Part shown: positions 3,317 to 49,606 of the stretch, one piece after another
How positions within the stretch are numbered: position 1 is the stretch's first letter
How the letters are laid out: every line of letters starts with the position of its first letter
Assembly: GCF_964204865.1 (NCBI RefSeq)
Contig: NC_135263.1
Coordinates: 17,343,426-17,407,425 of the forward strand
Length of the DNA: 64,000 bases
Reading direction: 5' to 3'
DNA from: Styela clava
Lineage: Eukaryota; Chordata; Ascidiacea; Stolidobranchia; Styelidae
Notes under the pieces: generated by a model
What the model saw: the letters and a program-made list of their open reading frames with translations, nothing else
The model's database searches: none
Told to the model about the DNA's origin: nothing
Made by a program: the position numbers and the translations under genes

Positions 3317-5922
3317 TCACGTTCCGTTTCTTTCAATCGTAGTCCGAATCCACTTGGAGAAATAGGCAATGTTAGTGTAAACACCCGGTGCGCCGTTTGG
3401 TAAACACGCTGAACCCCAACTTGTTACGCCCGCAAGATACCACTGTCGTAGCTTTGGTTGCCAACATGTCATAGGACCACCGCTGTCGCCCTGTAAAAAT
3501 AATTCAATAGTACAGTAGAAATTCTGATGGAAAAAACATTATGGTTTAATGAAAAATTAAATATGATCTGAGTTTTGATCTGCGTCATCAAATCTATTTT
3601 CTTGTTTGTTTTTGTTGTCATGTAGTGTTGTAAAAACCCAATGGTCCCAACGGAGGTGAGTCTTCTCAGGCCACAGGCATAGTCAAAAATTTCAACGTTT
3701 TTTTTTTTATATATATGCAATTTTGCAGTAAGACATAAATTCATACGCCTTTTCCAACACTATTTTACTCTAATCTTGAACGATTCACCGAAAACCGAAC
3801 ATTTCCTGGCGTGCTATTAATAATCCTTTCACCAAACGAGCTGGGTGAAAATGCGCACTTATATGCCTTGGATAACTTCTCCAGCGAAGTACATATGTAG
3901 AGCGATTCTAAGATATTGTTAGATAACAGCGGCTACTTTTATCTGGCTTTGTTCGGAGCAGAAAGCACATTACGTCATTATATGAATACCCCCCCCCCCC
4001 CCCAAAAGAAAATTTGAACTGGATACGCTCTTGTTCCCCTTCCTAAACCTTTGGCATACTTACACTACAAGCATCAATAGATCCATACTGTCGACCAGCG
4101 CATAACATTCTGTTCGATATCATATGCTTTGGAAAATATCTTTGGCATTCGAGGCTATCAGTAATATGAACTGCTCCCTCTTGAAGCTTTTGTGATCCCC
4201 TGGATGATTTCCCCGTGACGCCCCAGCCTGCAAAACATCAGATCGTGGTATTTAAAATGCTGCCCAAAAATGACAATTTTGTTCATCAAAACGTTTTTTT
4301 CATTATTATTACTGCAGTGTATAAGCAATCATCTACAAGCCAAAAACACACATAAAGTAACATATATAATATATACAAACAGTGACACCTTAGGAGGTTT
4401 CTGCAACAAATCGTAAAGTTAATTCATATTATTGAATATATGCAGTAACATTTGGTCTGAACTGGAGGTTAAACCATATATATATTAAAATTGAGTTGCT
4501 TTTTTGACTCCTGTTGTTTAATTGTGAATAATTGGTTTCCAAGATGTGATGGAAATTTTGCTCCATAAATGATCTTAGGCTACTTGTTGACAAAAATATT
4601 TTTTCAATAGATAAAATCAAACCTGCTATGTAACAGTATGCTCCAGGTTTAGGGGGAACGTCAGAAAAACATATTGGCATCCGATGCTGGTTCACAGGTA
4701 TATTTACTTTGATTAGTGCTATATCGAAATCCATTGAACTTGAATCAAACCTTTTAAAAATGAAGAAACGGTTAATGGATTTGCATATGTAAAGTCAACT
4801 TCAAGTTGGGAAAAATGTCCGCCTGTTTGCTCTAACAATATTTGACTACATTATTAAATAAACAAAAAGAGCCAGAATCACTCGTACTTCGTACCCACAA
4901 GACATCATCATACTGTTCATATAAACTATATTTTATTCTGCAACTAACTTTGTTAGACACATTTATTTTGTTCAATGTTGTCCAAGAATTTGTGGGAAAA
5001 AAAGTTAAACAAAATGAAGTCACAAATTAAAAAAATTGGTGATATCAATAAACCTGTACCTCGAATGCATTACGATTTCAGAAATATTTGCAATTATTTC
5101 TTGGTCTTTAGTATGAATATTCTGAGAAGTTCTTCCAAATTTTACTCTCCAATTTTCTCGCTGGTCTCGCCTATGGAGGAAAATATGAATTTTTTGTCTG
5201 AGGAGACCAACTATTATATAATAAAGCTTGCAAATATAAATATAATTTCTTGACAAAAGTCTGCAATTCTTGTTACAGAAAAAAAACATAATGTAACAAA
5301 ACCCTTGAGTTTTCAATTGCATTAGCGATTCAGGAAAAGGTCACGGGGTAAATTTTTTTGTCCTTCGGAAAGCGAAACGACAACAAAAGTGCCGTAGAAT
5401 GGTGGAAGTAAATAGGAATCGTAGTTTTGATATTCATACATATTTGCAATCTTGCCAAGTTCAACTTAAGGGCATTGTTTAGGAAATATAATAGCAGATT
5501 ACTCGGAAAGTGTAGTTTGGAAATTGCTGAATATATTATATCATAATGATTTAAATATTGAAGTGACGACATAAGACCACATTCTCAAACATATATTAGA
5601 TCTTTGCGAGTAAACAAATATTCAAAATTCAATAAAAGGAAAGAACAATTACAAAACTTACCCGTGGAAGCAGTGAGCTGCAGATACTAGCCACTGGCTG
5701 CTGAGCATTGTAGCTCCACAAACATGTTTTTTTCCTTGGAGGGACAAGGATGCTATCCAAGGCCAAAATTCTGCGCGCGCAGTTCTGCCACCAAATATTT
5801 TTGCCTCGATTTTGTATGAAAATGCATTCGGAGTATTGTCGTTGGGAAATAGCATTCTTTTCCCGCACATTGCAGGTTTGCAACTCAAGTGCACGAGGCG
5901 ATTATTTTGACAAGGAAAAATT
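3317..5922 (-). other. Trypsin (S1) domain exons of the corin-like gene
   Basis: Five exons (5662-5922, 5054-5170, 4623-4750, 4064-4227, 3317-3490) encode the catalytic domain, about residues 1556-1794 (239 aa, normal for S1). The zymogen site reads EAK|IFGG, so activation cleavage would follow Lys1555. The triad is complete: His1597 in SAAHC, Asp1649 in DFDIALIK, Ser1740 in GDSGGP. The S1-pocket residue six before Ser is Asp1734 (DACSGDSGGP), which predicts cleavage after Arg or Lys. The KLQEG and YCYIAGWG stretches resemble vertebrate corin. Stop TGA is the complement of 3317-3319. The splice junction falls directly before GDSGGP. Confidence 0.93.
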
Positions 5923-8900
5923 CTGAAAAATAATTACGGTATGTCAAATTTTAATGTGATATCAATCAAAACTTAGAAACGTTTTATCAAGTATATATCA
6001 CGGGCTTTAAATTTTTAGCCTTACAAATAATTGCAGCACTAATCCACATCAAATTCGATGTAAATGAAAACTGTAAACCGACTCAACTAGTATAGACAGA
6101 TATATGATCAACCATACAATGCATCAGTTCTTCATATCACATCACCTTTTCATGAACGATTCCTGAACAAGTTTCACTCTAGCTTTTTTTTTAATGTGAA
6201 CCGAGTATCCCACTTCGCTCTGAGAATGCATCGTAATCAAATGCAGAGCCTCACTAAGAAAAAAGGAGATAATAAATACTTGGTCGAATACAGAATGTGA
6301 TTCTTAAAAACGCGATTAGACTTGATTCTTCATTCAAAGGGGCAAATTGACAAATCGTTGGCATTACGTATTTTAAGCATTGCGTGGTCATGGAAATCTG
6401 CCTCTTTCATATCTATAACCACGATTCATAACAACAGTTTGAAGTAGCCTACCTGTATTTCATTTGACTGCAAGCCAAATGACTCAAAAGAGGAGCCCAT
6501 TCTTCTGCACAAATCGGGCTCCATCTGCCTCCGTGATATGCGATTAGAATTCCTGAGGACTCATGGGTAGACCAGTCAACGTGAATATAAGCAGCAGAAT
6601 TCATATAAAGATGAATACGATGTCTCGGCACGAGTTTTACTACAGAAAATATAAAAATAGTGTATCGTATCATATAATTGGAAAAAATGAAATTCTGCCA
6701 ATACCATAAACATTTGTTCATTTCAATAAATTTTACACTTTCAAAGCATATGGCTAATCAATAATGTTTGTTGCACAACATCCGGGTACATTACACCAAG
6801 TTATTGCTAAAGTTTGGGTAAAAAAGTAAACTAGTTGTGATGCACGTTTGGAGAATGCTACAATCAAATATATGGACAGGAGTTAGATATAAAACGTGAA
6901 AATTAAAAAGTCTATATATTATATAGTTTATGTCTTATATAGTTCAAAGAGCTTCATTAGGTACTTTACAAACTGTTTTAGAAAAATGAAGTTAACTTAA
7001 TTTTTATTCGAGCTTACTGCATCTATCTTCATCGCTCCCGTCAGGACAATCTTTCACTCCATCGCACCATTTATCAAAATCTATGCATGAATAATCATCA
7101 CATACTTTTTCGTCTCGAGTGCAGTTGTCTATTAAAACAAAAAAACAAATTACCATATTATGCACTACTTGCTTATGCAAACACACAAAAATATCTCTTC
7201 ATTTTCCATACCACAATGCAATTCATCGCGCCCATTCGAGCAATCAATATGTCCATCACATCTCCAATCCTTCGGCACACAGTGACCGTCGTTTGAACAA
7301 GGGAACCTGGAATTTTTTTTAATTGAATAAATACCCTAAAATGGTATTCTGTTTAATTTATGAGATTTATCGTATCTTGTTATACATAGAAACATCGTTT
7401 TTCCTAATTTTTTGTCAATATACCTGCATTTTCTACTGACCTCCCCATTATTTCGCAATCACACGTGACTTCATCAGAGCCGTCAGCACAATGTTTTATG
7501 CCATCACATCTAGAAGACAACGGTAGACATTGACCTGAAGATGTGCATCGAAATTCTTCTGCAGTGCAGAAGGCTAAAATAGAATTTTGCTTTTATGTCG
7601 TCACGCGCATTTCGTTTAGTCAAATGATTTTTTCAGAAAGTTTGCCATGAAATTTTAAATTTTGAAGAAGTTCTAAATAAAAAAAAAATTAAAATTTATG
7701 TACCTTGCTGCATAGTCTCCAAATCTAGACACGTTTTTGCGCCGGTGGCATCAATTGGGTTTGATATTTCAGAAGGCATCGATCCACAAGATAAAAATGC
7801 TGGCCAAGATAAAGATACGGATCGTAAAGTACTTTCACAAGATGAGCGAATAGATTGGCATAGTTCTCGACAAGGAAGTAATCTGGTAGGTAAAATTTCA
7901 ATTTAATAAACACACTACACATATGAGCATAGGTGACGCGCAAACTCGTGTGGAAGTTTAGTGCGTTTTATTATTACCTGGAAGCATGCTTTTGCTTCAT
8001 GAAGTAAATAATTCGATTGATAAACCAGTAGTTTGCCAATTGCTTCGGAAAAAATACGATTATTCCAGAGCAACCCCACTAACAAACTGTTTTACGTAGA
8101 TTTATTAGGTAATAAAAAGTGTCAAAATTCCGAAAAGTGGACAACATAAAATCATTAACATAAATTTGAATGTCGTTAAAAATCAGAATTTAATTGATAA
8201 AAAACTTTGAATGTCCTAATAATGAAAAATAAGATATTACTGCAGGGATTGTACTTGCCTTGGTGGTGTGTAGGCTGGCATTCCGGTGATATTCATGGAA
8301 CATTGCAATCTTTTCCCTCTCCATGTATTTAAATGCGGTGGAGGAGCGAAGATCGAACATCCAAGTTGTCGCAAAAACGGATGACATCTAAAATACATAA
8401 GCTGTGATAAATATAAGATCTTGGTTCGTTCTTTAAAGATTCGTTCTATAGTTGTGTTTACCTTGTCTTAACAATGGCGCTAAACAAAGTGTATTCCGGA
8501 CTTGCAGCTGTTTTAGCTTGTACTCGATGATCCAAAAAATTAGGAAAAGCTGTGACGTTATATGAAGCATCTCTACATACATCCAGTTGAACAGGTTCAC
8601 ATCTACCTAAATGTAAATTAATAAAAACAAATTCAGTAAAATGACCGTTTTGGCAAATAAATTGTTCTTTATCCGCTTTGCTTTGGGTATCGGGAGTTTA
8701 TGTCGAATACGACGGTGGAAATGATCATTGGAAATGACAAAACATTACACACACCTAGCTGATGACCCTTTCCGATATTACCATCATATCGTTTATGAAC
8801 GATCGACTTCTGGCGATATCAGATCGCCTCGGCGTACCTGGACCTACTTTTCCCTCTATCATTGTATTATTCGCTGCGAGAGTTTATTAAGGGTTTCGCT

Positions 8901-11900
8901 ATCAAGAAACAGTAGTGTTTTTACCCTAAACTGCCCTATTATATAAACAGTGTGCATTTTCAGGATGGCGGTAAATGAACACGATTGCTTGAACAAAATC
9001 GAAAAGATGTTGCGACCAGCAAATCATAAAGCTGACCGTTTAATTACTTTCTTAATCGGTATAACGATTAAAATAGCATAATACAATATTCAAATTATTA
9101 CAAAACATAACAAAATATATTTTATCTAGAATATTGTTAAAAACTATTTTTTGTGTCATTTTGGAATATAAGTATAACTTACGGCAATTTTTTTCATCTT
9201 CTCCACGAAAACAATCTTGTTTTCCGTTACACACCGACGAAACTGGTATGCAATTTCCACCACATGATATTTCATACGCGTTACATCCTGAAAATAGTTT
9301 AGAAATGTCTACATAAGTATATGCAATTTATCCACACATAGTGAGCTCTAGTTTCATTTGTTTTTTTATATTAAGCAATGCAATTGGGAATTTTATAGAA
9401 GTGGAAGGAACACTATATGTCAACTGCTGAAGATTAATTATTTAAGATGAAGATAATTAAAATGGACGTTAATCTTGTTTACTCTTAGTATTTGTGAGAT
9501 ATAAAAATAAAAAATAACTTGATTTTTACTTTTGTCGTGCCAATCAATTCTGCAATAAAATACTAAACTTGGCATATTTGTGAAAAACTGGAAATTAAAT
9601 ACGAAAAGATAGTTTACTTGTTCGTGCGCATGCGTTTTCGTCGGAACCGCCGGGACAATCGTCCTCTCCATCACATTTGTAGATCAACGGAATACAAAGA
9701 TTATGTCCTTCACATTGCAGCATTCCTCGACTTTCACAGCCTGTGTATAAACTCAGATCAAATTTTATACCATATTGGGATTTGAGACAAATTTAGAATT
9801 AGGGCCTAACGTCCACTTCGGTGTATTTCCTTATTAACGAGCCTTATTACCTGGCATACCTGCCTGATATTATTTGCTCTAAATACCAATTTCAATTTGA
9901 ATATTCATGAATCAACAATTTTCAATTCTAATTTCTAAACATTTATTCCATAAACAATACACGAAGCTATTACATACTGCAAAATCTTTCATCTTCTGCA
10001 TTGTCGCAATCTACGTCACCATCACACCACCAAGATGCGCTTATGCATTGTCGCGTGATGTCACAATTACGAAGACCCGGTCTGCAGATACCTCAAATAA
10101 AATGCATCATTTAACGTCATAATAATGTAATTTAATTTGAAAAAAGAACTCACACATAACGTCTTGCTTATTATGAAGATTACTTAATATTTATTGCGCA
10201 TGTCTTCAGAAAGCAATGCATAACGAACAAATATCTTAGATTGTACTAAAATATGATTTGAGATCATAAATATTTGGTATCGAAAAATGAGCAGAATATA
10301 ATTAAATTAGCTAGTTCAATTTGTATATTTTCGGCTGTTATTTTGTTTTCGTAAATTAAAAAAATATATATATATGGTCAGCTTAGTGACTAGAGCAGCG
10401 TTTCTCAAGCCGCAAAAGATTCTCAGCTGTGCCGCAGAGCTTTTTGGAATTTTAGAAAATAAGCTGTTCGTATTACACATATGCATGAATGCATCGGGCA
10501 AGCTTGTGAGACTTGAGTATGCAGTATTAGACTGGTAATGTTATTGCATTTGCCTTTGCGTTGTAGAAAGAGTAATTGTCACGTTATAATTGTTTTGTTA
10601 TGTCATAATGTAAGTGTAAACAAGACGTCCACCTTCCACCAGGTTGACTTGCGCGATTAGTAAGGCTAACATGAAAGCAAGTTTGGGAGAGTTTTGGCTA
10701 TCTGCTTACAAATTCTATTCAATCATCGGAGCAAAAGTCATCAAAATAATCTAGCCATTTGCATCTTCATGGCTCTGTGAACACGGATTTTCTGCCATTA
10801 CTGAACTTAAAAACGAAAAAGGGAGCGACGGAACCTCGTTTCAATTGTTTCACAAAACAGGCACACATATCGTATTAACATTTAAAAAAATAATTTGTTT
10901 AGAGCTAACTTTATTTTTTACAAGTGTGCCGCCAAAGTTTGAGAACCACTGGGCTAGAGCTTCGTACTTTAGCTATGCTGGAATAGCATGTTCAATTTCG
11001 CAGGTCCAAACTCCATGCCATCACCGCATCCATGGTGTAATAAAATGGTCGATATCGAAACGCGAAAATTCCAGTCCAGCCAAAAATAGTAGCTCTTCAC
11101 ATATTATTGGATTCTTGGACGAAGCCCTTTTCAACAACATAGTCAAACTTAAAAAAAAATGGTCGATATCGAAACGCGAAAATTCCAGTCCAGCCAAAAA
11201 TAGTAGCTCTTCACATATTATTGGATTCTTGGACGAAGCCCTTTTCAACAACATAGTCAAACTTAAAAAAGTATTGCTGTCTACTTGATAGTACAACGGG
11301 CAGTAAAATATAATTTATGCTTTAGTATTGAAAGAGTATGACACAACATACTGCAGTTTCGTTCGTCTGATCCATCGGAGCAGTCGTAATATCCGTCACA
11401 TCTTTCATCAGATTGCACACATTGACTATTATCACAATGAAACTGTCCTGCTGAACATTCTGGTAGAGAGAAAATTATTTAACAAATCAGAAAATAATTC
11501 GTATTTCAGCGAAAACGAATTATACATGTTGTAATGACTATTTAGAAATATTCTGTTATAAAATTACTTAAAAATATTATCATGAAAAAATTACGTCATC
11601 TATTGTTGAACGATCAATGACATTTCCTTCATTACGTCGAAATCGATCAATTATTCAGAAAGCTTTGAACCAAAAATCGATTGCTGGAAAGCTTCAGCAC
11701 AACATGTCAAAGGATCAAACACAAAGTTTAAGATCCAAATAGGTTTATATTTACTTTTTGTGTGGGACGTAATGGTTTTGCACTTGATTTGCGTGAATCA
11801 TTTCCGGGTCGAGGACATTTTGCCCTCAATTTTCGTTATAAATTTGTTTCAATATGAGAACAGTATGTCCAAAATATTGTGGCCAATTTATTCTTGAGTT

Positions 11901-22598: not shown

Positions 22599-22608
22599 GC
22601 TACATCTC
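22599..22608. repeat. Left target-site duplication of the MULE block
   Basis: GCTACATCTC directly precedes the left terminal repeat. The same 10 bases occur at 33661-33670, directly after the composite block. MULE duplications are typically 9-10 bp. Confidence 0.75.
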
Positions 22609-22844
22609 ACCAAAGTTACCATAGCAGACATCTCTCAGCGGACATCTCTCTCGTTTTCGGAACGGTAAAATAGCGTTGCCAGAAAACGATTCAACATGGC
22701 ACTTAAATGCCGCATCGGAAAAAAAGGAAAGCTAGTCGCAAAGTACTTGCCAGATTTACGGCGAAATTTTGCTACACTCGGAATTACACGAAACTTATCT
22801 GTAATTTCCGATGGCCGGGCAGATTTTTGAAGATGATATAAAAA

Positions 22845-23862
22845 AAGAACTTATATTGAAGTCATCCTAATTCAAGTTTTATGAAATTTATATGTTGGGA
22901 ACATATAATATTACATTGTCAAACATGACCAAAAAGAAATTTCACATTAAAATTAATAAATGTCGGCATTTTAACCCCAAATTCTGTACTTTTCGATTAG
23001 GTGCCCCACTTTTAGATAAGATATCTCAAAAAAACATATTGTGAAGTCATTTGGAACCAAGTTTCAGAAAAATTGTATGTCGAGAATATATAATAATATC
23101 TTGTTAAACATGGCCCAAACAGGAATTTTACATCAAAATTAATAAATATCAGTATTTCAACCCCAAATTTTGTACTTTTCGATTACGTGCCCCACTTTTG
23201 AATAAAATATCCTAGAAGAACATATTGTGAAGTAACCTCGAACCAAGTTTGAGAAAAATTGTATGTCGGTAACATATATTAATATCTTGTTAAACATGGC
23301 CCAAACAGGAATTTTACATCAAAGTTAGTGAATATCGGCATTTTACCCCGAAAATTTGAACTTTTCGATTACGTGCCCTACTTTTGAATAAAATATCCCA
23401 AAAGAACATATTGTGAAGTAACCTCGAACCAAGTTTGAGAAAAATTGTATGTCGGGAACATATATTAATATCTTGTTAAACATGGCCCAAACAGAAATTT
23501 TCCATCAAAATTAGTGAATATCAGTATTTCAACCCCAAATTTTGTACTTTTCGATTACGTGCCCCACTTTTGAATAAAATATCCTAGAAGAACATATTGT
23601 GAAGTAACCTCGAACCAAGTTTGAGAAAAATTGTATGTCGGGAACATATATTAATATCTTGTTAAACATGGCCCAAACAGGAATTTTACATCAAAATTAG
23701 TGAATATCGACATTTTAACCCAAAATTTTGGACTTTTCGATTACGTGCCCCACTTTTGAATAAAATATCCTAGAAGAACATATTGTGAAGTAACCTAGAA
23801 CCAAGTTTGAGAAAAATTGTATGTCGGGAACATATAATAATATCTTGTCAAACAGGAATTCT
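22845..23862. repeat. Left subterminal array, 186-bp units
   Basis: Between five and six direct copies with a period of exactly 186 bp: the marker TTTCGATTA falls at 22991, 23177, 23363, 23549 and 23735. Units are A/T-rich and about 90% alike by eye. They are the reverse complement of the array at 30233-31132, so the two arms could pair as a large foldback. Confidence 0.93.
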
Positions 23863-24165
23863 TGTCATCCTAATGCCAAATCAAACCATATCATTTTAAC
23901 ATAATTGGGCATCGTTTTATGCTTGTTCAGTAGTAGCTTGAAAGGTGATGCATTAAGATATGTCATGCGTAACATTACCATTGTTATGTAACTGAGTAAG
24001 ATCTACTGTTACGTAATAATCATAACATTTGTGAGCATGCCGTATTTGGCAGTTGACATTCTTTCCTGAGGAGCCTTCACCGAATCTGCTACGGTATTCC
24101 GGTCAACTACTGAGGTAAGTATCCTTTATTGTGATTAACATTCGTAACATAGATTACAGGTAAAC

Positions 24166-25672
24166 ATGAGGGGATTCCGAACACGACCCGTCGCTTATCC
24201 AAGAGGAGCTGCCACTGCGAGTGGTAAGCAAACCGCGTACCTCCGCAGCCCAAAAGAACAACATCGTCCACACCTTCTCCTACTGTCGGACAGCAATATA
24301 CGGAACATCACATTTCCGAAGGTGAGCTGGGTTTAATGGATTATAGGCATGAAATGTTTTAACCTATCTGCTCTATTTGTTACAGCGAGGTGACTTATTA
24401 TAATAGTAATTTTCTATCCCAAGGGTGAACCCCCATCCGCCCCATAATTGATTATAATAGCATATATAGAAAGTGACGCATGTATCAGTACTAGTGTACC
24501 GGAAAATACATGACAACCTTAGTATGAGTTACAAATAGGTCTATCACAAATAGCAAAAAACATTTACCACCCCCAAATATGAATTTGCTCCTTCACCACA
24601 CCCAAACGTTAATGGAATGTTTAATATTTATGTAATAGTAAAGTTGTACCCTACGTTAATAACTGCGATTTCAATACAGGTTGTTTCTCCGTCGCCTTCA
24701 TCTCCGTTCTCACTATCGTCTATTTGTTTGCCCGGCGGGCAATTACGACATGGTGTGGCGGAGATTTTGGGGACGGAGGCGTTCCCCGAAGTCGACTACC
24801 TCTTGTTGGCTCTGGGGACCAACGACGTTGCAGGATCTGGTGGCTGGGGCAAACAATCCCGAGAATACGCCGAGAAGCTGATTGGAGCGAGTCAGCAGGC
24901 TTATCCGGGAGTCAAGGTTTGTTTTAGAAGTATATATATCTACTCATTATCTAGTCCATATATATTTCTGTAGATATGTAAATAATTCAAGCATCAACAA
25001 AGTGCAATTAAGATTGTTTTTTGATGTTCATGTTGTTGAAAGAATTGCTTATCTCGGCAACTAATGGACTTTCCAACTTCAGTAGGCCTTCTTGAATATT
25101 AAAAAACACATTTTATTACGTTTTTCTCGACCATTAGACTATTTTTGCTCTCCAATGATTCTTGCAAATTCTCTGACCGCAACGCACCAGAGCCGTGACG
25201 CATGCTTTCACGAGCTGTAATCGTAATATATATAAAATATTTTTTGGATGTTCACTTATTGGTTAACAGCCAATTTATTAAGGAGAATACATGCTGTATT
25301 TCTAGATATTATTAGCGAAGATATTGCCCCAGTCAAATTGTTCCACTGCGGCAGCAAATAGGGACATGGATGCAATTGGCAAACTGCGCTCTCTACGCCT
25401 TCTCGACCTTGACGTTGGCAGTAATCCTTCGTACTGGAGCGACGATTTACATCAGTCGGATCGTGGATTGGCGCGATACATGCAGATTCTCGAGTCTGTA
25501 GTAGCAAGAATCGTACGAAAAGGTGAGATGTTTATGATGTCATTATTCTTTATATTGTATTTGTATTCTAAATTGTGAGTGAATAATAACTCGAGCAAAT
25601 GCTAACATATAAAACCAAAAATATTTTTAGACAACACTCCCGAATCTTCGAAAACAACTACAAAAAGGGCAT
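24166..25672 (+). CDS. SGNH-hydrolase-like protein inside the MULE element
   Basis: Four exons splice in phase: 24166-24321, 24680-24916, 25306-25522 and 25631-about 25672. A possible 5' leader exon ends with donor GAG|GTAAGT at 24114. The product has SGNH blocks: LLLLSDSN (Ser nucleophile), LLLALGTND (block III) and DDLHQSDRG (Asp-His pair), with ILLAKILPQSN between. It would be an esterase/lipase-fold enzyme; the substrate is unknown. It lies between the left array and the transposase on the same strand, so it appears to be cargo or part of the element polyprotein. The junction after exon 4 (donor GCAT|GTAAGT) is unresolved; it may splice into the transposase frame at an acceptor between 25760 and 25841, or the unspliced frame ends soon after. 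Confidence 0.75.
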
Positions 25673-25766
25673 GTAAGTATGACTCTTCCGTGTATTTGAA
25701 GTATGATTTCCCTGTGGTAGACTCTTCTGTTGGAACTGAGACTAAATTAATCCCTGCTTCCAGTAG

Positions 25767-28700
25767 ATCAATTCCTCGTCGAAGGAAAAACTTCACCTGG
25801 AAGCCCTTATCTTTGACTCTGTTTCTTCTTCTACCACACAGCCCCATCCTCCCCCCATTTCTTTGGTGTCCTATGCCAATGCGGTTACTCGGCCAAAAAC
25901 TTCAGTTACGCTAAAACCTGCAAAATGTTTGCGGCCTGCTCCTACCCGACCATCTTACGCAGCTGTTGTTTCACGTGGACTTCGTAAGGCCTGTCCTGTC
26001 GATGTTATCCGACCTGTTTCATCAGATTTGGAGACAAAGCTTCCCTTGTATCCACGAAGGCTTAACACTTATTCTGCACCACCCAGCTCCGAAACTATAC
26101 CTTCAAGGAGCCTGGAACGAACTGATGTCACCGGTCTTTTCACAACTGTTAAGAGTAGAAGATCAACAATGACGAAAATTTCTCAGCATACTTTGCCAAT
26201 GAAGAAGACAGCGAATCAACTTTGTAAGACTGTGGTCTATACCAACGATGTACATCCAAAGTCTTTACTTCACTCTACTTCATTTTCGAAACAACGTCAC
26301 CGTGGACAGAAGGTCTCTTCGGCCTCATCTTTCACTCCTTCTGTTGTTTCTCGTGGTGCTCCTGGGCCTGCTTCTAATATTACTTTGCTGCACGGGAATG
26401 GGCGTCCCAAACATACTAGCAGATCTTTCTTTTCTACTCCACCCTCTTTTAGTAACTCTGAGCATTTTGATAAGAAGAGTCCCATTCCACGGAAGAAGTT
26501 ACCGAGATCATCTTCTTCTGTGAAAAATGTTCAATCCTATTTAATTTATAAACAGTCGGGCGGTGTGTTTTCCGAAAACAAATTGTCAATTCAGTCGTTG
26601 GTATGTGCAATGAATGATATGGGATCATTTAATCCAAATTCCCATGCAGACTGGGTCAAATTAGCAAACGTTATTTGGAACACAAAATTTGCCAAAGGTG
26701 AATTGAAAAATTATATTCGAAAATTGCGACACTTTTGGAACAAGAACTCAAAAAACCTAAAAGGCAATGAAACATCAATTTCTGACACATCGGGCGATGA
26801 AGGATTTAAAAATACCAAACGGGATGAACCTTCTTCTGACTTTTCTCCTGAAACTAAAATTATAAATTCGACTGCCAAAATTTGTCATAAAAAAAACACA
26901 CCGCCTACGCCGCCCAAGACCTTAGAAGAAAGCTGCGAAAACATATTCGATCAGGTTAGTAAAAATTCAGAGATATTTTTAGATGCGCATGGGAGTGATT
27001 TTCATGTAGGTGCTCAAAGTTCAGTGCAAGCACATGGTATATGGAAACGTGAAAATCCAACAAAGAATGCCACATTTAAAATGGACACCAAAAATTGGAA
27101 CAGTCTTTTTAATTCCGTTGCTGGGCGAAAAATAAAAAATCCCAATTGGGCTGATGTTTTCAGAAAATTTATTAAAGAAAGTGACCCTTACTGTTCATAT
27201 GCATTTCGATGGCACACAGTAAATTCTGGAATATTGGCAAATCGTATTTTTGCTTGTAGTGGGCATTGTTGCTTTACAGGTTGCAGTCGTAAAATTTCTG
27301 TAGTATCCTATCGGAAAGACCCCCGCATGTTTCATATTTCATACACAGACAAGATTCGCCATATTGGGTTAAAATCAATGAGACTTAAAGGTAAACGTAG
27401 GAAAGAGTTTCAGGAAAAATTGGTTCATGTTCTCCCTCGTAAGATTTATTTAAAAAAGATAGGTGCTCTCTCGTCTGAAGTCTTTCATTCTGGTAACAGG
27501 GACGATGCCCCATCCCAAGCTGTTTTAAAAAAGGCACGTCATGAATCTAGGGTTATCCGTGTCCCCAACCCCGGCAACCAATGGGATTCGCTATATTCAC
27601 TGAGAAAGTTGCAGTACGAAAGGTCCAAAAATCAAGTAATTCGTGGAACCTTGCAGCAAATTTCAAGGGTTCCTTCGGGGATTATGTTTTGGTCAGAGGC
27701 TTCGGTAAAAAAATTCATTCAAAATTCCTCTATTGACATTATATACATTGACGCTACTGGTGGAATTTTGGCGTCCGGTGGGCATAGTCCATACTACGTC
27801 TATGAAATTGTTACGCGTCATCCACAAAAAGGAAAATCACCCCTGGCCGTTGCCACGTTTGTAACAAATCGGCACAATATTCCAAATATTTCGAACTTTC
27901 TCATGCAATTCCGTTGAGATGTTTCCAAACTAACTAAAAGATTCCCCGCGAAAGTTTTTATATGCGATGGAAGCATGGCCCTTATAAAGTCAATAATTCA
28001 GGTTAACATGCGGGAAAGTTTGGAATCTTACATTTCGCGATGTTACGCTGTCATTGAAGGTACCGCAAATTTAGATATGCTTTCACGCCCCTATCTTCAT
28101 TTATGCACGAGTCATACCATGAAGAATTTTAAACAGTTAGCTTGTAAACTACCAAAATTAAAACGTGAACTAATGCATATATTTGGACTACTCGTTTGTT
28201 GCGGAGAGTTGAAAACAGTCCGTAAAATTGTTTATCATTTCACTATTTTATTAATTTGCCAAAATTCTAATTTTATGCATGATAGTTGGACTTACTTGCA
28301 AAAGCAAATTGAAAAACAGAACATTCCTGTGCCTTCTGATGGTGAATTAGACCTAGGGACATCGGATGAACTTTTACCAGATGAAGATTTGAGCGAGATA
28401 AATCCTCTTACGGAATTAATGAATTGCGACATTTCGTCAGCCATTGAAATAGCAAGTAATGCAGAAATTTTGGGTTCCAACAATTTTTACTGCCCGGAAA
28501 TATTGTCCAAATTTAAAACGTTCTATGTCCCGAAGATATGTCTTTGGGGAAGTTTGATGGTAGGTGATTTGGGAAGATATGGTAATTCAATTGGCTATTT
28601 GAAATATTCGACTTTTTATGCAAAAGTCTCAGCTTCTGAGAAACAAAACATATCGCGAGATAATCGCACTCAGGGAATCATGGAAAAAAGTCAGCAGGAA

Positions 28701-28949
28701 CTAAAGCGAACTCGTTTAAACAACAGACGATTTAAACGTCTTGACGAGATTGCTATAGTTTATGATGAACTCCATGACTCTCTGATTAGGGAATATGAAG
28801 ATAATTTGATTGTTTGTCCAAAAAAAAAAGGAAAGTTGAAAACAATGACCAAATTGACCAAGAAATTGAGAAATGGAGTAAACGATCCCGAATTCAGGGT
28901 AAAGACAAATGTAAAGGAGTGTATCTTCAGCCCCCCATTAGACCTCTAA
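25767..28949 (+). pseudogene. MULE transposase frame interrupted by one TGA
   Basis: A single frame is open from 25767 to TGA at 27915-27917 and resumes in the same frame to 28949. It covers a low-complexity Ser/Pro-rich N-terminus, a Cys-rich patch (CSGHCCFTGC) likely to be a DNA-binding finger, the first catalytic Asp in YIDATGG (27750-27752), the second in ICDGSMALIKS (27966-27968, just after the TGA) and the LCTSHTMKN motif typical of MULE transposases. The TGA lies between the two catalytic Asp residues, so ordinary termination would give an inactive protein. I name it MULE from these motifs and the 10-bp duplication. At 28820-28829 a run of ten A's marks the point where the coding frame shifts to that of the next segment. 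Confidence 0.8.
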
Positions 28950-29833
28950 AGATGTTTCGCCCTCAAGAACTTTCTAATAACGATAGCCCAATTCTAATAA
29001 AAGCTGACGAAGCGTCTACTACACAATCTATGATGTTGCGGTTCGTCTCACCGAAAATTCCATCCCAAAAATTTGTACATTTATCTGATGTCGATCATAA
29101 AATAATGAATTCCAAAACTAATTTTAGAAGAGACTGGTTTACTTCGGATATTATGAACACCGCACAATTAATTTTGTCATCTCGGTATTCTGAAGTAGAC
29201 GGGTTGCAAAGCACGACTTTTTATACAACGCTATCTGGCCCTAAATTGTATGTTACTTCTGAAAAATTTGTTCAAATTTTATTTGTGCACGAAAATAACT
29301 GGGTAACAGCATCAAATATATTCACCGCCGACCAAAATACTATACAGATTTATGATAGCTCTTATATGAAGTACAATGAAAATGACAAATATGCGATTTC
29401 GCTTTTTATGCGGCCAAGGCAAGGAACAAATAAAGTACAAATTGAATTCCCCGTTGTCCAGCAACAAACTTTAGGTGCATCATGTGGCCCATTCTCGATT
29501 AGTTTTTGCATAGCCCTATGTAACAAAATACGACCAGAGCATATCCTATTTGACGAGAAAAATCTTAGGAAGAAAATATGCGATGGTATAGTCTCTGAAA
29601 ATTTTTCGTCGGTATTTAACATCAACAAGAAACGTGTTATACCCGCGCCCAGGCGATTGGAAATTCCGATTTTTTGCAACTGCCAACTGTCTTACATTGA
29701 AAATCAGACCATGATCGAATGCACTTCATGTTTAAAATGGTACCATCCAAAATGTTGTAGTATTCCAGTGCCAGTTGAGGCACTGAAAAACAGCGAAATA
29801 GAATGGAATTGCAAAAAGTGCATTCGATGCTAA
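28814..29833 (+). CDS. Ulp1-like cysteine protease with C-terminal PHD finger
   Basis: This frame overlaps the end of the transposase frame and lies one base back (-1) from it. The first part resembles C48/Ulp1 proteases of transposons: VHENNWVTAS, IYDSSY (Asp), VQQQ (Gln) and SCGPFSISF (Cys nucleophile). The usual His-Trp pair appears as Asn-Trp, so activity is uncertain. The last 55 residues form a C4HC3 PHD finger: CNC, CTSCLKWYHPKCC and CKKC. There is no good ATG at the start; the first codon is TTG, which fits a downstream segment of one long protein rather than a separate gene. Ulp1-like proteases cut SUMO-type conjugates and PHD fingers read histone tails; roles in the element are inferred. 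Confidence 0.75.
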   Translation: MSKKKRKVENNDQIDQEIEKWSKRSRIQGKDKCKGVYLQPPIRPLKMFRPQELSNNDSPILIKADEASTTQSMMLRFVSPKIPSQKFVHLSDVDHKIMNSKTNFRRDWFTSDIMNTAQLILSSRYSEVDGLQSTTFYTTLSGPKLYVTSEKFVQILFVHENNWVTASNIFTADQNTIQIYDSSYMKYNENDKYAISLFMRPRQGTNKVQIEFPVVQQQTLGASCGPFSISFCIALCNKIRPEHILFDEKNLRKKICDGIVSENFSSVFNINKKRVIPAPRRLEIPIFCNCQLSYIENQTMIECTSCLKWYHPKCCSIPVPVEALKNSEIEWNCKKCIRC

Positions 29834-30232
29834 ATTACATGCAAAGCAATATTCAACTAGATATGATCATTTACATTCTCATTTTTTCTAGGTACATCAT
29901 TCAAGTCAGACGAAGGATCAGTCTGTTTTACCTATTTGGCTTAACATGCCCTTTGCCAGGTTTTTCTCTCTTGGTCTAGTCTATAATATTGAGATGAAAA
30001 CCGCCACGATGGTTGGCACCTTGACGTCGTGGTGTGGTGCCTTTATACTAAGACCAACCATTTTAAAAAAATTTTTTTTTTAAATATGAGATAGATCCCT
30101 AGTATGAAAGAACGAGATGATTTCACAATTCGTTTATGTTATCTTACTTAAATTGAGGCACGCCATTATAATGTATACAGTATCCTGGGTTGTGATAGCG
30201 TTGTTTATTAATTTTTAGTCGGATTCTTATTT

Positions 30233-31132
30233 GGGCCATGTTTGACAAGATAATATTATACGTTCCCGACATACAATTTTCCAAAGCCTTGGTTCGAGGT
30301 TACTTCACAATATGTTCTTTTGGGATTTTTATTCAAAAGTGGGGCACGTAATCGAAAAGTCCAAAATTTGTGGTTGAAATACTGATATTTATTAATTTTG
30401 ATGTAAAATTCATGATTGTGCCATGTTTGACAAGATATTATTATATGTTCCCGACATACAATTTTCCTCAAACATGGTTCGAGGTTACTTCACAATATGT
30501 TCTTTTGGGATATTTTATTCAAAAGTGGGGCACGTAATCGAAAAGATCAAAATTTTGGGTTAAAATGCCGATATTTACTGATTTTGATGTAAAATTCATG
30601 ATTGTGCCATGTTTGACCAGATATTATTATATGTTCCCGACATACAATTTTTCTCAAACTTAGTTCGAGGTTACTTCACAATATGTTCTTTTGGGATATT
30701 TTATTCAAAAGTGGGGCACGTAATCGAAAAGTCCAAAATTTTGGGTTAAAATGCCGATATTCACTAATTTTGATGTAAAATTCCTGTTTGGGCCATGTTT
30801 AACAAGATATTAGTATATGCTCCCGACATACAATTTTTCTCAAACTTGGTTCGAGATTACTTCACAATATGTTCTTCTAGGATATTTTATTCAAAAGTAG
30901 GGCACGTAATCGAAAAGATCAAAATTTCGGGTTAAAATGCCGATATTCACTAATTTTGATGTAAAATTCCTGTTTGGGCCATGTTTAACAAGATATTAAT
31001 ATATGTTCCCGACATACAATTTTTTTCAATCTTGGTTCGAGGCTACTTCACAATATGTTCTTTCGGGATATCTTATTCAAAAGTGGGGCACGTAATCGAA
31101 AAGTACAAAATTTGGGGTTAAAATGCCGTTAA
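30233..31132. repeat. Right subterminal array, 186-bp units, inverted
   Basis: About five copies of the same unit in reverse orientation. The marker TAATCGAAAAG places CG at 30353, 30539, 30725, 30911 and 31097, again spaced 186 bp. It ends just before the right terminal inverted repeat. Confidence 0.93.
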
Positions 31133-31960
31133 AATGCCATGGTAAACCGTTTTCTGGCAACGCTATTTTATCGTTCCGAAAACGAGAGAGATGTCCGCTG
31201 AGAGATGTCTGCTAGGGTAACTTTGGTCGGCTGACGGACAACTCGACTACACGGACAACTCGACTACCTAGAGGCCTGGTGAGTTGTCCGTCTTTTGGCA
31301 TTTTCTACGGCGGTGTTTTAGGTCTATAGAAATGCGTAGCAGTAGTCTAAACTCGCCTACGGCAGTCGCCAGACAGGCCGTCAACTCACCAGTCGAGCAA
31401 ACGCTCTGCGACGTGACGTCATCGATGCTCGAGGTGAAGACAACTCGACTACCGAGCAACGAGAGGCAGACAACTCACCAGTCGAGCAATCGCTCTGCGA
31501 TATCGATGCTCGAGGAGAAGACATTGCTTTGCAAAACGCAGACTCAAGAGTTGCATAGAATTTACTTAGTGCCGACTGATATTAGTTGTAAGCCAACTCA
31601 CCACCTGAGTAGTCTACCAGCCGACAGCCACGTTCCATCTGCTGAGATACAACAATCGGGTTGGTGTCAGGGTACTTCCACTCAAACGTTACGTCCTGTT
31701 TTTTTATTAGCCTGTACTGTTCCCTTGTCATTACCACATCTGAATCATTAAAACATTTGCGATGAAACCAATTTCGACAGACGTCACAGATGAGTCCCTC
31801 CTACTTCATGGAAACGTTGTCGTCAAATCTCTTGCACATATTTGGAGTAGTCATCTTGAATTCTTGCGTAGTTTTTGTGGAGTTAATATACCGTTAGTCG
31901 TCCTCGTTTCAGTATAAAACTGTGATGAAAACGACCTCGGCTAATGAGTATTTACGTTTG

Positions 31961-32057
31961 TAAGGTGTCAGGCCGGCGATAATGAGGCTTCAAACTCGGC
32001 GATAACCGAGCAGTAATCTCGGCGCGCGGCTTCATTATCACCGATCTGACACCTTAT
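31961..32057. repeat. Small palindromic insertion inside the second MULE
   Basis: AAGGTGTCAG followed by GGCGATAATGAGGCTTC on the left is mirrored by GGCTTCATTATCACCGATC and TGACACCTT on the right, leaving a loop of about 35 bp. It looks like a miniature foldback element. No coding content. Confidence 0.6.
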
Positions 32058-32217
32058 CTAATCTCCGTGCATGGATATCACTTCACTCAGGCCATCATAA
32101 AGAATGTGCGTCACAATAATTTGCCTCGCCTATACAACAAGTGAGTGGTTAACCATATTTATATATGTCTTTGTACATCTTTCACTTCTTTTGTATTAAC
32201 ATGTTTTTGTTTTAGGG

Positions 32218-32732
32218 ACGCTGGAACAAGAGACCTGATCAAGCATGTCATGGTGCTGTGCTATATACCAGCTATGTTTATTACGTCCAGATTCAAATCA
32301 CTGAAAGAAAAGATGCAAACTCAAGAACTTCGCCGAATATTTTCAAAACACATGGCTATACAACAGTGTTTGGACTCCCAATGATTGGTCAGTATTCGAC
32401 GTAGAAATAAGAACCAACAATCATCTAGAAGGTTGGCACCGTCATTTTAACAGTATAACTCGGAAAAACATGCCTTTTTACAGTTTAATCTCAACAATGT
32501 ACGAGGTAAGTATAGGGATAGAGGCGGACGTTGTGGAGATTTTGGAAGAGAATGTTGTGGGGCGTGTCAACGGCAGGTATGCGGAAGCCAACGAGAGGGT
32601 GCAACGTGTCTGGGAACAATTTAAAAAAGAAGAGTTATCTGTGGACTCTCTTCTTCGAAGGTGTTCAAGGATCTACGGGCGCAGTATTGCAAAGAGTAAG
32701 TATGTAACGCAGCAAATTTCCCATAACGTTTA
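32218..32732 (+). pseudogene. MULE transposase C-terminal fragment, frameshifted
   Basis: Two overlapping frames together read as the end of a MULE transposase. One gives LCYIPAMFITSRFKSLKEKM; after a frame change near 32330 the other gives YFQNTWLYNSVW, DWSVFDVEIRTNNHLEGWHR and an alpha-helical tail to the stop at about 32731. The TNNHLEGWH motif is characteristic. The catalytic N-terminal part is absent, so this copy cannot be autonomous. Confidence 0.78.
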
Positions 32733-33660
32733 GTATTCAAATAAAATTCATTATACGTAACGAAAAAGAAAACAAAACCTTCCATCCATTGAATTTCCCC
32801 ATAACGTTTAGTATTTAAATATCACATTAAATTCATTAATCGTAACAAAAAGTAAACATCTTTTATCCATTCTTCGGCCCAGTTTCTTTGCCAGGCGTAG
32901 CGACAGTGCCTATCTGTTCCTGGTTTTCTTCTGCAAAAAGAAATTCCAACTCTATGACTGAAACCTTGCCGTGGTGAGTTGGCTTACAACTAATATCAGT
33001 CGGCACTAAGTAAATGCTATGCAACTCTTGAGTCTGAGTTTTGCAAAGCAATGTCTTCTCCTCGAGCATCGATATCGCAGAGCGATTGCTCGACTGGTGA
33101 GTTGTCTGCCTCTCGTTGCTCGGTAGTCGAGTTGTCTTCACCTCGAGCATCGATGACGTCGCAGAGCGTTTGCTCGACTGGTGAGTTGACGGCCTGTCGG
33201 GCGAATGCCGTAGGCGAGTTTAGACTACTGCAACCATAGACTACCGAGCTCACGTTCATAAATATTTAAGTGTTACTGTGAAGTATAAAGGTTTTAATAT
33301 ATTTAAAGGTGCTCATTCAAAACATTTAATACCAATAAAGTTTAAAAAAATTAAACGAACACAGTCCTATAAATCAACAGTCTAACTTCGCTAACGTTAC
33401 TCCAATTTCGTCTGTAGACTGTATTTCTATTCATACAACATGATCAAAATAAGCCACTTATACAAATAAAAATGCTTTCTAGAGCATATTTATGTATTTT
33501 TCTCAACATTTGAGCACTAAAAATATCAAAAACGCATTTCTATAGACCTAAAACATCACCGTAGAAAATGCCAAAAGACGGACAACTCACCAGGCCTCTA
33601 GGTAGTCGAGTTGTCTCTGGTGATTTGTCCGTGTAGTCGAGTTGTCCGCCTCCCCTTTGG

Positions 33661-33670
33661 GCTACATCTC
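33661..33670. repeat. Right target-site duplication of the MULE block
   Basis: GCTACATCTC, identical to 22599-22608, follows CTTTGG, the complement of the outer element's end. This supports one insertion event for 22609-33660 with a second element later inserted at the right terminus. Confidence 0.72.
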
Positions 33671-48000: not shown

Positions 48001-48238
48001 TTCATACTTTAGTTTTTTCTTCCTACTTGATGGTAGGTACTCAAATTCTTTTACAATCTGATTATTGGTGATCATAAATTAAATGTAAATCGGAATACTA
48101 GCTAGTACTATCATATTTGTGGAAGTGCCAATGCATTGGCAATGCTGCTATTCTGTACATCATTTTCAAATATGGCCAACTTACAACAAGTCGTTTGTTT
48201 TTTTTTCAGAAAAATTTAGAATAAAGAAATTTAGCAAA
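45087..48238. other. Intergenic DNA with transposon fragments before PLRG1
   Basis: No recognised exon. It contains frequent ACCGGTAC-type motifs, a hAT-like right end near 46893-46975 (GGCCCGCGGTCAAAAAAGT), a MULE-arm fragment near 47500 and an acceptor-like T-rich tract directly upstream of PLRG1. Confidence 0.4.
47498..47535. mobile_element. Solo fragment of the second MULE's terminal arm
   Basis: GAGTTGTTTGTGTAGCCGAG followed by TTGTCCGTC closely resembles the right terminus of the element at 33621-33648. No matching opposite end is seen nearby. It shows the family has other copies in this genome. Confidence 0.55.
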
Positions 48239-49606
48239 ATGGAGGAAGTAACAAAGCATTCTGTACATACATTAGTCTTTCGTTCTTTGAAACGTTCACA
48301 TGATATGTTTGTTTCTGATCATGCTGCACCATTGCCAGTCAATGAAATAGCTGCAGCAATACGCCGAAACACGAAGATGCGAAATGAATATGGCCCCGTA
48401 TTACACATGCCAACTGCGAAGGATATTAAACAGGCATCACAGGTACAGCAGCAAGATAAACAAAATACACAGCAACACAACCAGATGGATAACGAAGTAA
48501 AAGCATCAAAACTTGGAGCACAACATACACCAATTGAGGACTCAAGTAGCCAAGCGTTGGTTGCTGTTAATCAAAACACCAAAGCATTGGCTACAATGAA
48601 AAAAGCGTCAATAATGCCGAAACCTAAATGGCATCCACCTTGGAAACTTTATAGAGTCATAAGTGGCCATCTTGGATGGGTTCGGTGTGTTGCCTTTGAA
48701 CCAGGAAATGAATGGTTTGTTACAGGGTCAAACGATCGTACTATTAAAATTTGGGACTTAGCAAGCTGCAAATTGAAGCTTTCTCTCACTGGGCATATAA
48801 GCACTGTTAGAGGACTGGCAGTTAGTTCGAGGAATCCATATTTGTTTTCATGTGGAGAGGATAAACTGGTAAAATGCTGGGACCTAGAACAGAATAAAGT
48901 TGTTCGTCACTACCACGGACATTTAAGTGCCTGCTACGCCCTTGACTTACATCCAACTATTGATATTTTGGTCACTTGCGGACGAGACTCCTCTGCAAGA
49001 GTATGGGATATGCGGACAAAATCAAATATCATGACTCTTGCTGGTCATTCTAACACTGTTGCAGATGTAAAATGCCAAAGTGTTGAACCCCAGGTTATCA
49101 CAGCATCTCATGATTGTACTGTCAGGCTGTGGGATCTTGCTGCTGGAAAAACAAGGGCAGTGCTTACAAATCATAAAAAAAGTGTACGGTCAATAGCACT
49201 TCACCCTAGACAATACACATTTGCAAGTGCTTCTCCTGACAACATCAAACAATGGAAATTTCCAGATGGGAATTTCATACAAAATCTTTCTGGCCATAAT
49301 GCCATAGTAAACTGTTTAGCTCTCAATTCAGATGGAGTTTTAGTGTCTGGTGCTGATAATGGAACTCTTCATATGTGGGACTGGAGGACAGGACATAATT
49401 TTCAGAGAACAAAAGCCCCTGTTCAGCCTGGATCTTTGGATAGTGAAAGTGGAATTTATGCTGCTGCATTTGACCGTAGTGAGAGTCGCTTGGTAACTTG
49501 TGAGGCTGACAAGACAATAAAAATATATAAAGAAGATGATGAAGCCTCTGAAGAAACACATCCAGTTCAATGGAAACCAGAAATAATCAGAAAGAAGAGG
49601 TTTTAA
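48239..49606 (+). CDS. PLRG1: Pleiotropic regulator 1, spliceosomal WD40 protein
   Basis: PLRG1 (yeast Prp46) is a core member of the Prp19/CDC5L complex, needed for spliceosome activation in the nucleus. The 455-aa product starts [20 protein letters not shown], has a Gln/Asn-rich linker to about residue 130 and then seven WD40 repeats, with [50 protein letters not shown] and [12 protein letters not shown] clearly visible. The end [14 protein letters not shown] is typical of the family. The frame is open further upstream, but ATG at 48239 is chosen because it matches the family start and a strong acceptor tract (poly-T then CAG) lies about 30 bp before it. The coding region has no intron. Human PLRG1 is 514 aa. 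Confidence 0.95.

Follow-up and report, generated by a model that had tools for sequence, protein, structure and literature searches.

Rehavkus transposons, represented by Rehavkus-1_TC and Rehavkus-1_HR, form the outgroup of the tree of Mutator-like elements (MULEs) in PMC6446971 and are described there with a 9-bp target duplication, a PHD finger in the transposase and a minisatellite near the 3' terminus. Rehavkus-1_TC measures 9.5 kb and carries a 164-bp satellite in its inverted termini, mostly as five and eight monomers (PMC10218199). The stretch analysed here, 64,000 nucleotides (nt) of Styela clava contig NC_135263.1 (positions 17,343,426 to 17,407,425, forward strand; referred to as the window), contains at 22609-31227 a transposon, element 1, which resembles Rehavkus in three respects. 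It has a 9-bp target duplication (9/9 bases in the window, 9/9 in genomic copy L085 and 5/5 readable bases in L079), a PHD finger in the transposase protein (above the profile cut-off in the window and in L088), and satellite arrays in the termini, with a unit of 186 bp in the window and of 193 bp in the C3 copy. It differs in that the words Ulp1, hydrolase, esterase, peptidase and SGNH are absent from the text of PMC6446971. In architecture element 1 matches the published features of Rehavkus, which makes it a candidate member of that clade.

Other parts of element 1 have counterparts elsewhere. Mutator elements of hydra and lancelet carry Ulp1, and in Ginger1-9_HM Ulp1 and PHD are C-terminal domains of the DDE transposase protein (PMC2836005). 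As in MULEs and MuDR elements with Ulp1 (hydra, lancelet, plants), the Ulp1 domain of element 1 lies C-terminal to the DDE transposase, and as in Ginger1-9_HM both Ulp1 and PHD are C-terminal. The word esterase is, however, absent from the text of PMC2836005, and Ginger2 is given 4-bp duplications there, as against 9 bp in element 1. SGNH hydrolases are present in CR1, RTEX and Penelope elements, the esterase of ZfL2-1 being active and lipid-binding (PMC3905857), and also in rotifer long terminal repeat elements (PMC5408684) and in terminons (PMC6431247). The esterases of CR1, L2, RTEX and Penelope elements, among them ZfL2-1 ORF1p, are likewise SGNH proteins of mobile elements, but these are retroelements with the esterase in the first open reading frame (ORF1) and not on a DDE transposase. 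Esterase and PHD domains reportedly both occur in CR1-like elements, going by a title of Kapitonov and Jurka from 2003. In fish, texim is an intron-bearing SGNH gene tied to Helitrons and in this respect similar, being an SGNH gene with introns linked to a DNA transposon; most teleost Helitrons are without it, the Helitron is a rolling-circle element, and the gene lies near the Helitron coding region and is not a domain of the Helitron protein (PMC4021074). Among the open-access literature matches listed, none had SGNH joined to a cut-and-paste transposase, which is no proof of absence, Repbase and closed papers lying outside this scope.

Our analysis makes it quite probable that element 1 is a Rehavkus-like (MULE-type) cut-and-paste transposon in which SGNH, a linker, an N-terminal region, the DDE core, Ulp1 and PHD are spliced into one polypeptide, acting by the mechanism proposed at the end of this text. 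Its coding features are the following.

24166..24321, forward strand: SGNH exon 1, with start codon and the Ser motif SDSN at 24286; the start MRG(F/Y)RTRP is conserved in three subfamilies
24680..24916, forward strand: SGNH exon 2, with PGG (24731) and GTND (24815); splice positions common to L081, L082 and the C3 copy
25306..25522, forward strand: SGNH exon 3, with DDLH at 25441
25631..25716, forward strand: linker exon from SGNH to transposase, in which the exon 3 frame stays open; 3' border tentative, with several phase-compatible donors
25842..28829, forward strand: transposase coding exon, 5' border tentative, with the motifs of D (27744), D (27960), C..H (28101) and E (28674)
27915..27917, forward strand: in-frame TGA inside the transposase of the window copy
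28820..28829, forward strand: ten consecutive A at which the frame changes, ahead of the Ulp1 domain
29288..29488, forward strand: Ulp1/C48-type protease core, HENNW ... YDS ... QQQTLGASCG; Peptidase_C48 in the homologous L082
29678..29821, forward strand: C-terminal PHD finger, PF00628 at 1.9e-6, above cut-off; PHD structures matched

The three SGNH exons have GT-AG borders and phases 0, 0 and 1. Their spliced product matches Pfam Lipase_GDSL_2 with 8.9e-7 and 30.0 bits (up to 31.4), just below the curated cut-off of 32.9, while the exon 2 frame alone reaches 20.3 bits; L081 scores 41.9 bits, above the cut-off, and the C3 copy 32.8, just below it. SGNH/GDSL hydrolases have catalytic Ser, Gly, Asn and His, with Asp often present. 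None of 50000 shuffles was matched by a regular expression of the four blocks, which had been composed with the sequence already in view; the motif rules behind this expression and the Ulp1-core expression used below are general background. Searches of the PDB by sequence gave no match for SGNH, Ulp1 or the transposase ORF alone, and a three-row SGNH profile gave weak matches, the best of which (E 0.046) was an acetyl esterase. A spliced, intron-containing SGNH-type esterase on the transposase strand, as proposed in a preliminary description of the window, is thus borne out by the three GT-AG exons and by the Lipase_GDSL_2 match, with a homologous copy above cut-off.

The transposase was searched for in the whole 376.6-Mb assembly, giving at least 69 matches. 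Twenty further places were examined as 10-kb stretches around such matches; the window, these 20 stretches and L094, a distant relative described below, account for 42 of the 69. SGNH lies upstream of the transposase and in the same orientation in ten of the 20 places, which fall into three diverged subfamilies. Parts or the whole of each of the three exons are found in six (L076, L081, L082, L087, L088 and L089), exon 1 of L087-L089 being truncated where the stretch begins and provided for L087 by L095. Smaller remnants occur in L075, L080 and L083 and, as repeated fragments, in L093. In L076 the SGNH has decayed and contains stops and a change of frame, and in L083 the terminal array extends into SGNH exon 3.

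The introns after exons 1 and 2 are at the same positions in the window, L081 and L082, with GT-AG borders, and at corresponding positions in the C3 copy, which belongs to the L087-L089 subfamily. The MRG(F/Y)RTRP start and the residues S, G, N and H are invariant in 3/3 aligned subfamily representatives, and an Asp at His-3 is found in 2/3. Identities of SGNH and transposase, respectively, are 69 and 72% between the window and L081, 54 and 44% between the window and C3, and 49 and 42% between L081 and C3, the last transposase value being computed over most of the long ORF. Ratios of non-synonymous to synonymous substitution rates (dN/dS) of SGNH against the window, rough values near or at synonymous saturation, are 0.16 for L080 and 0.18 for C3 (dS 2.7), whereas the close but decaying copies L075 and L076 give 0.66 and 0.76; for L081 and L082 the proportions of non-synonymous (pN) and synonymous (pS) differences are 0.196 and 0.783, with synonymous sites saturated. 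By these comparisons SGNH is an old part of the lineage, under purifying selection across three subfamilies whose transposases are 42-72% identical.

This bears on two other explanations for the presence of SGNH. A host SGNH gene might have been picked up recently by the window copy alone, in Pack-MULE style, as passive cargo with its introns. The retained introns would fit, as would the proneness of MULEs to acquire host gene fragments (PMC6446971) and the G+C content of the SGNH exons, 0.523 compared with at most 0.425 in 2000 sampled transposase windows of equal length. Recent passive cargo is nevertheless ruled out, to the point that we give it very little credence, by homologous SGNH with the same start, common introns and signs of purifying selection in subfamilies diverged to 42-72% transposase identity, and because SGNH is old and selected across subfamilies, its high G+C does not imply a recent arrival. 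An ancient capture of a host SGNH gene is its probable origin. Insertion of an SGNH-bearing secondary transposon into element 1 is scarcely conceivable: nesting does occur locally (element 2, 31228-33661), but no direct or inverted repeats of 20 nt or more were reported in 23850-26200, and the recurrence of the arrangement in other subfamilies contradicts it.

Rather than being a gene of its own, SGNH most likely forms the N-terminus of the transposase protein. In all three of L087, L088 and L089 the SGNH exon 3 frame is open, at 391 aa, and a predicted 136-bp intron with GTAATA/TAACAG borders and matched phase links it to a frame of 1267-1278 aa that comprises transposase and PHD; the 1150 joined residues run into the transposase with zero stops. 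L082 has an unbroken frame of 1423 aa, with Peptidase_C48 above and PHD below cut-off. In the window, 25631-25830 contains no stop in the frame continuing exon 3, against four and six in the other frames, and 134 open codons precede the first ATG of the transposase frame (chance 0.004 under a first-order model), which points to a translation start further upstream. If SGNH and transposase were instead two genes in one element with separate promoters, the frame change after exon 4 of the window with its ambiguous intron and the Met 26 residues into the L081 transposase frame would find an explanation, and the splicing between SGNH and transposase is a prediction. The phase-matched open reading from SGNH into transposase in L087, L088 and L089 and the 134 codons without ATG at the start of the window transposase frame make two genes rather unlikely. 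In the preliminary description SGNH was an added enzyme within a MULE. That it belongs to the element holds; it is most likely an N-terminal transposase domain, and the architecture is specifically Rehavkus-like.

MULE transposases are of the DDE catalytic type and have a C/D-x2-H motif placed after the second D and before the E. The window transposase shows D-72-D-239-E with a C..H motif, residues that are putatively catalytic from their motifs and that align and are conserved in L082, L088 and L094, down to 27% identity. The motifs YIDATGG, ICDGSMAL and LCTSHTMKN, from which a MULE transposase had been proposed, are present, but Pfam adds no transposase profile to this assignment. The Ulp1 stretch of the window holds H..W / YDS / Q..CG, and the Ulp1-core regular expression matches 5 of 50000 shuffles. 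Neither the window copy nor L088 has a Pfam match to Peptidase_C48; the ORF of L082, 66% identical to the window in this stretch, matches it at 1.3e-5 with 25.6 bits (cut-off 20.7), so that the Ulp1-like protease, also proposed before, is carried by the core motifs and by the homologous copy and not by a profile match of the window itself. The proposed PHD finger on the same strand is confirmed by PF00628, which is also above cut-off in L088 (1.7e-5) and below it in L082 (5.5e-4). The window copy itself is damaged, with the in-frame TGA and the frame change at the poly-A run; the latter could be a mutation, an assembly error or slippage.

The borders of element 1 and the structures surrounding it are the following.

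22609-31227: element 1, with inverted ends and flanking target duplication
22609..22707, forward strand: left terminal inverted repeat, beginning ACCAAAGTTACC; this terminus is found again in other genomic copies
31129..31227, reverse strand: right terminal inverted repeat, an inverted-repeat match to the left end
22873..23854, forward strand: 5.3 copies of the 186-bp unit, forming the left array
30231..31128, reverse strand: 4.8 copies of the 186-bp unit in inverted orientation, forming the right array
22600..22608, no strand: left copy of the 9-bp target-site duplication CTACATCTC, adjoining the left terminal repeat
33662..33670, no strand: right copy of the 9-bp target-site duplication CTACATCTC, directly past the nested element 2
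31228..33661 (borders approximate), no strand: element 2, nested, MULE-like and not part of element 1, separating element 1 from the right duplication

The outer ends of element 1 form a 99-nt inverted repeat with 93% identity between 22609-22707 and 31129-31227, and the borders given in the preliminary description are exact. The 186-bp units are 81-95% alike between the arms and 84-97% inside one arm. CTACATCTC occurs twice on the forward strand of the 64 kb (22600 and 33662) and not at all on the reverse strand. With its ends matching and CTACATCTC displaced by element 2, 22609-31227 is most simply explained as having transposed as a single unit. The terminus ACCAAAGTTACCCTAGCAGACATCTC is common to the window subfamily (L077, L079, L084), L080 and the L081-type subfamily (L083, L085, L092); in the window copy it stands at the right end, and the left end departs from it in a single base. 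L085 is flanked on both sides by AGCGGTAAC (9/9), and L079 by CAATT (5/5 readable bases, the right side being readable only that far). Element 2 carries GGACAACTCGACTAC in both inverted ends, has inverted internal stretches, and contains at 32305-32733 a transposase C-terminal fragment (TNNHLEGWHRHFN) whose sole Pfam match is DDE_Tnp_IS1 at 0.023, below cut-off. Its own target duplication is imperfect, TTTGGTC / TTTGGGC. The bases TTTGGG, the last ahead of the right CTACATCTC, are almost a copy of TTTGGT at the end of element 1; insertion of element 2 between element 1 and its duplication would be expected to leave this pattern.

The preliminary description had raised the question whether SGNH is a part of all intact copies and had associated copies without it with a chance neighbouring host gene or a secondary insertion. 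SGNH is upstream of the transposase in half of the 20 places, and copies without it do exist; the three subfamilies, common introns and purifying selection speak against both chance and secondary insertion. In seven of the ten places without SGNH a terminal array extends up to or near the remaining element DNA. In L074, L077, L079 and L084 the 186-bp array reaches to about 15 nt from the first kept transposase residue (145, 145, 469 and 494, respectively), and in L078 it ends about 110 nt before DNA matching the region downstream of SGNH. The 193-bp arrays of L086 and L090 end at 3876 and 3984, homologous to L087 position 3907 and beyond the SGNH exons of L087. L092 is without a counterpart of L081 1767-4255, which holds the SGNH exons, and its array is separated from the break by about 860 nt of DNA that is not array sequence; its SGNH loss is an internal deletion. 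The other two are L091, whose alignment to L087 ends upstream of 3601, and L085, which has only a transposase fragment between good termini. SGNH can therefore be lost, and its presence, as judged from these alignments, is not due to chance.

Replacement of the element's 5' end by terminal satellite arrays, to differing points, has occurred repeatedly (L074, L077, L079, L083, L084, L086, L090), and such array-extended deletion derivatives appear to multiply. The junction of L074 and L077 is identical to the base, which indicates descent from one derivative. Arrays of satellite units in the termini are found in other copies besides the window; the C3 copy, an element of more than 18 kb, has arrays of the 193-bp unit on both sides. 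L093 (G000:C2:5192300-5202290) shows threefold SGNH exon 1-like fragments and Ulp1 pieces, recurring about every 423 bp next to parts of the transposase, and is a decayed array built of element parts. The copies L087, L088 and L089 lie on three contigs and agree to 99.5-99.9% across nearly 10 kb, which suggests that they are recent; since the element extends past the stretches, segmental duplication is a possible source of this near-identity instead.

Several of the observations weigh against the reading of one selected, SGNH-bearing transposase. SGNH is absent from ten of the 20 places, and two of these, L078 and L092, keep the transposase from residues 14 and 62 onwards, so that SGNH is probably not required in cis. 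The C3 copy has NGRLH and lacks the Asp at position -3 from the catalytic His; catalysis may therefore not be the selected function in this branch, which leans towards binding or a Ser-His enzyme. The dN/dS values are subject to the saturation mentioned above. The joint between exon 4 and the transposase is ambiguous in the window, with 16 candidates, and all splicing is predicted from genomic sequence. No Pfam transposase profile matches the ORFs of the window, L082, L088 and L094 at E ≤1, the read-through ORF at E ≤5 or the two core pieces at E ≤10. Single-sequence structure predictions for Ulp1-PHD and for the transposase core had a pLDDT (predicted local distance difference test) of 31 and were not used.

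A sister family is represented by L094 (G000:C8:13400200-13409000), the ORF of which (3607-8799) has a transposase 27% identical to that of element 1 (E 2.7e-42). Its modules are an N-terminal PHD-like finger (2.0e-4, below cut-off), the DDE core, a Ulp1-like stretch recognised by eye and without Pfam match, and a ubiquitin carboxyl-terminal hydrolase (PF00443, 2.1e-11); SGNH was not found in the L094 stretch. At least nine more places, at 31-33% identity, have open frames of 783-1894 aa, L094 being the one read of ten. No relatives of element 1 were found in viral contigs or in prokaryote genomes. For 53 pattern loci in viral contigs, tblastn gave four weak matches (best E 0.28), all four off the pattern site and taken as chance. 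Elsewhere in the window, 48230-49606 encodes the spliceosomal WD40 protein PLRG1 in one uninterrupted frame, two stretches of which are highly similar to solved PLRG1 chains, and 11042-11270 consists of two exact (100%) 114-bp tandem copies within the open frame 10755-11288.

According to the proposed mechanism, the transposase transcript would start in SGNH and be spliced through to the PHD finger. The DDE core would cut at the ACCAAAGTTACC ends and insert the element with a 9-bp duplication, ends and duplication being those observed. From what is known of their families, the probable task of the PHD finger is to anchor the complex on chromatin, and that of the Ulp1 domain to strip the transposase, or host repair proteins, of SUMO or a comparable tag. 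SGNH would probably be a weak esterase or an acyl/lipid-binding module that helps the transposase to localise or assemble, a role like that proposed for the ZfL2-1 esterase. Copies lacking the 5' part keep the termini and, where readable, the target duplication, and could plausibly be moved by protein made elsewhere.

The suggestion of an esterase-bearing, distinct lineage going beyond the standard MULE parts agrees with the finding of SGNH in three subfamilies with the same introns and signs of purifying selection. We see about an even chance for the more specific proposal that this is a distinct Rehavkus-like lineage with SGNH as a selected N-terminal transposase domain, in which acyl-ester hydrolysis or acyl/lipid binding, by the kind of enzyme found in CR1/L2, is part of cut-and-paste movement. 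The esterases of retroelements are suspected to act via lipids or via the localisation of ribonucleoproteins. If a selected esterase does reside on a DDE transposase, the role of the esterase cannot depend on reverse transcription, and esterase function in transposons would become testable in a second, unrelated mechanism. Together, the esterase/Ulp1/PHD set of element 1 and the ubiquitin-hydrolase set of the sister family suggest a collecting of modules that may be aimed at modified host proteins or chromatin.

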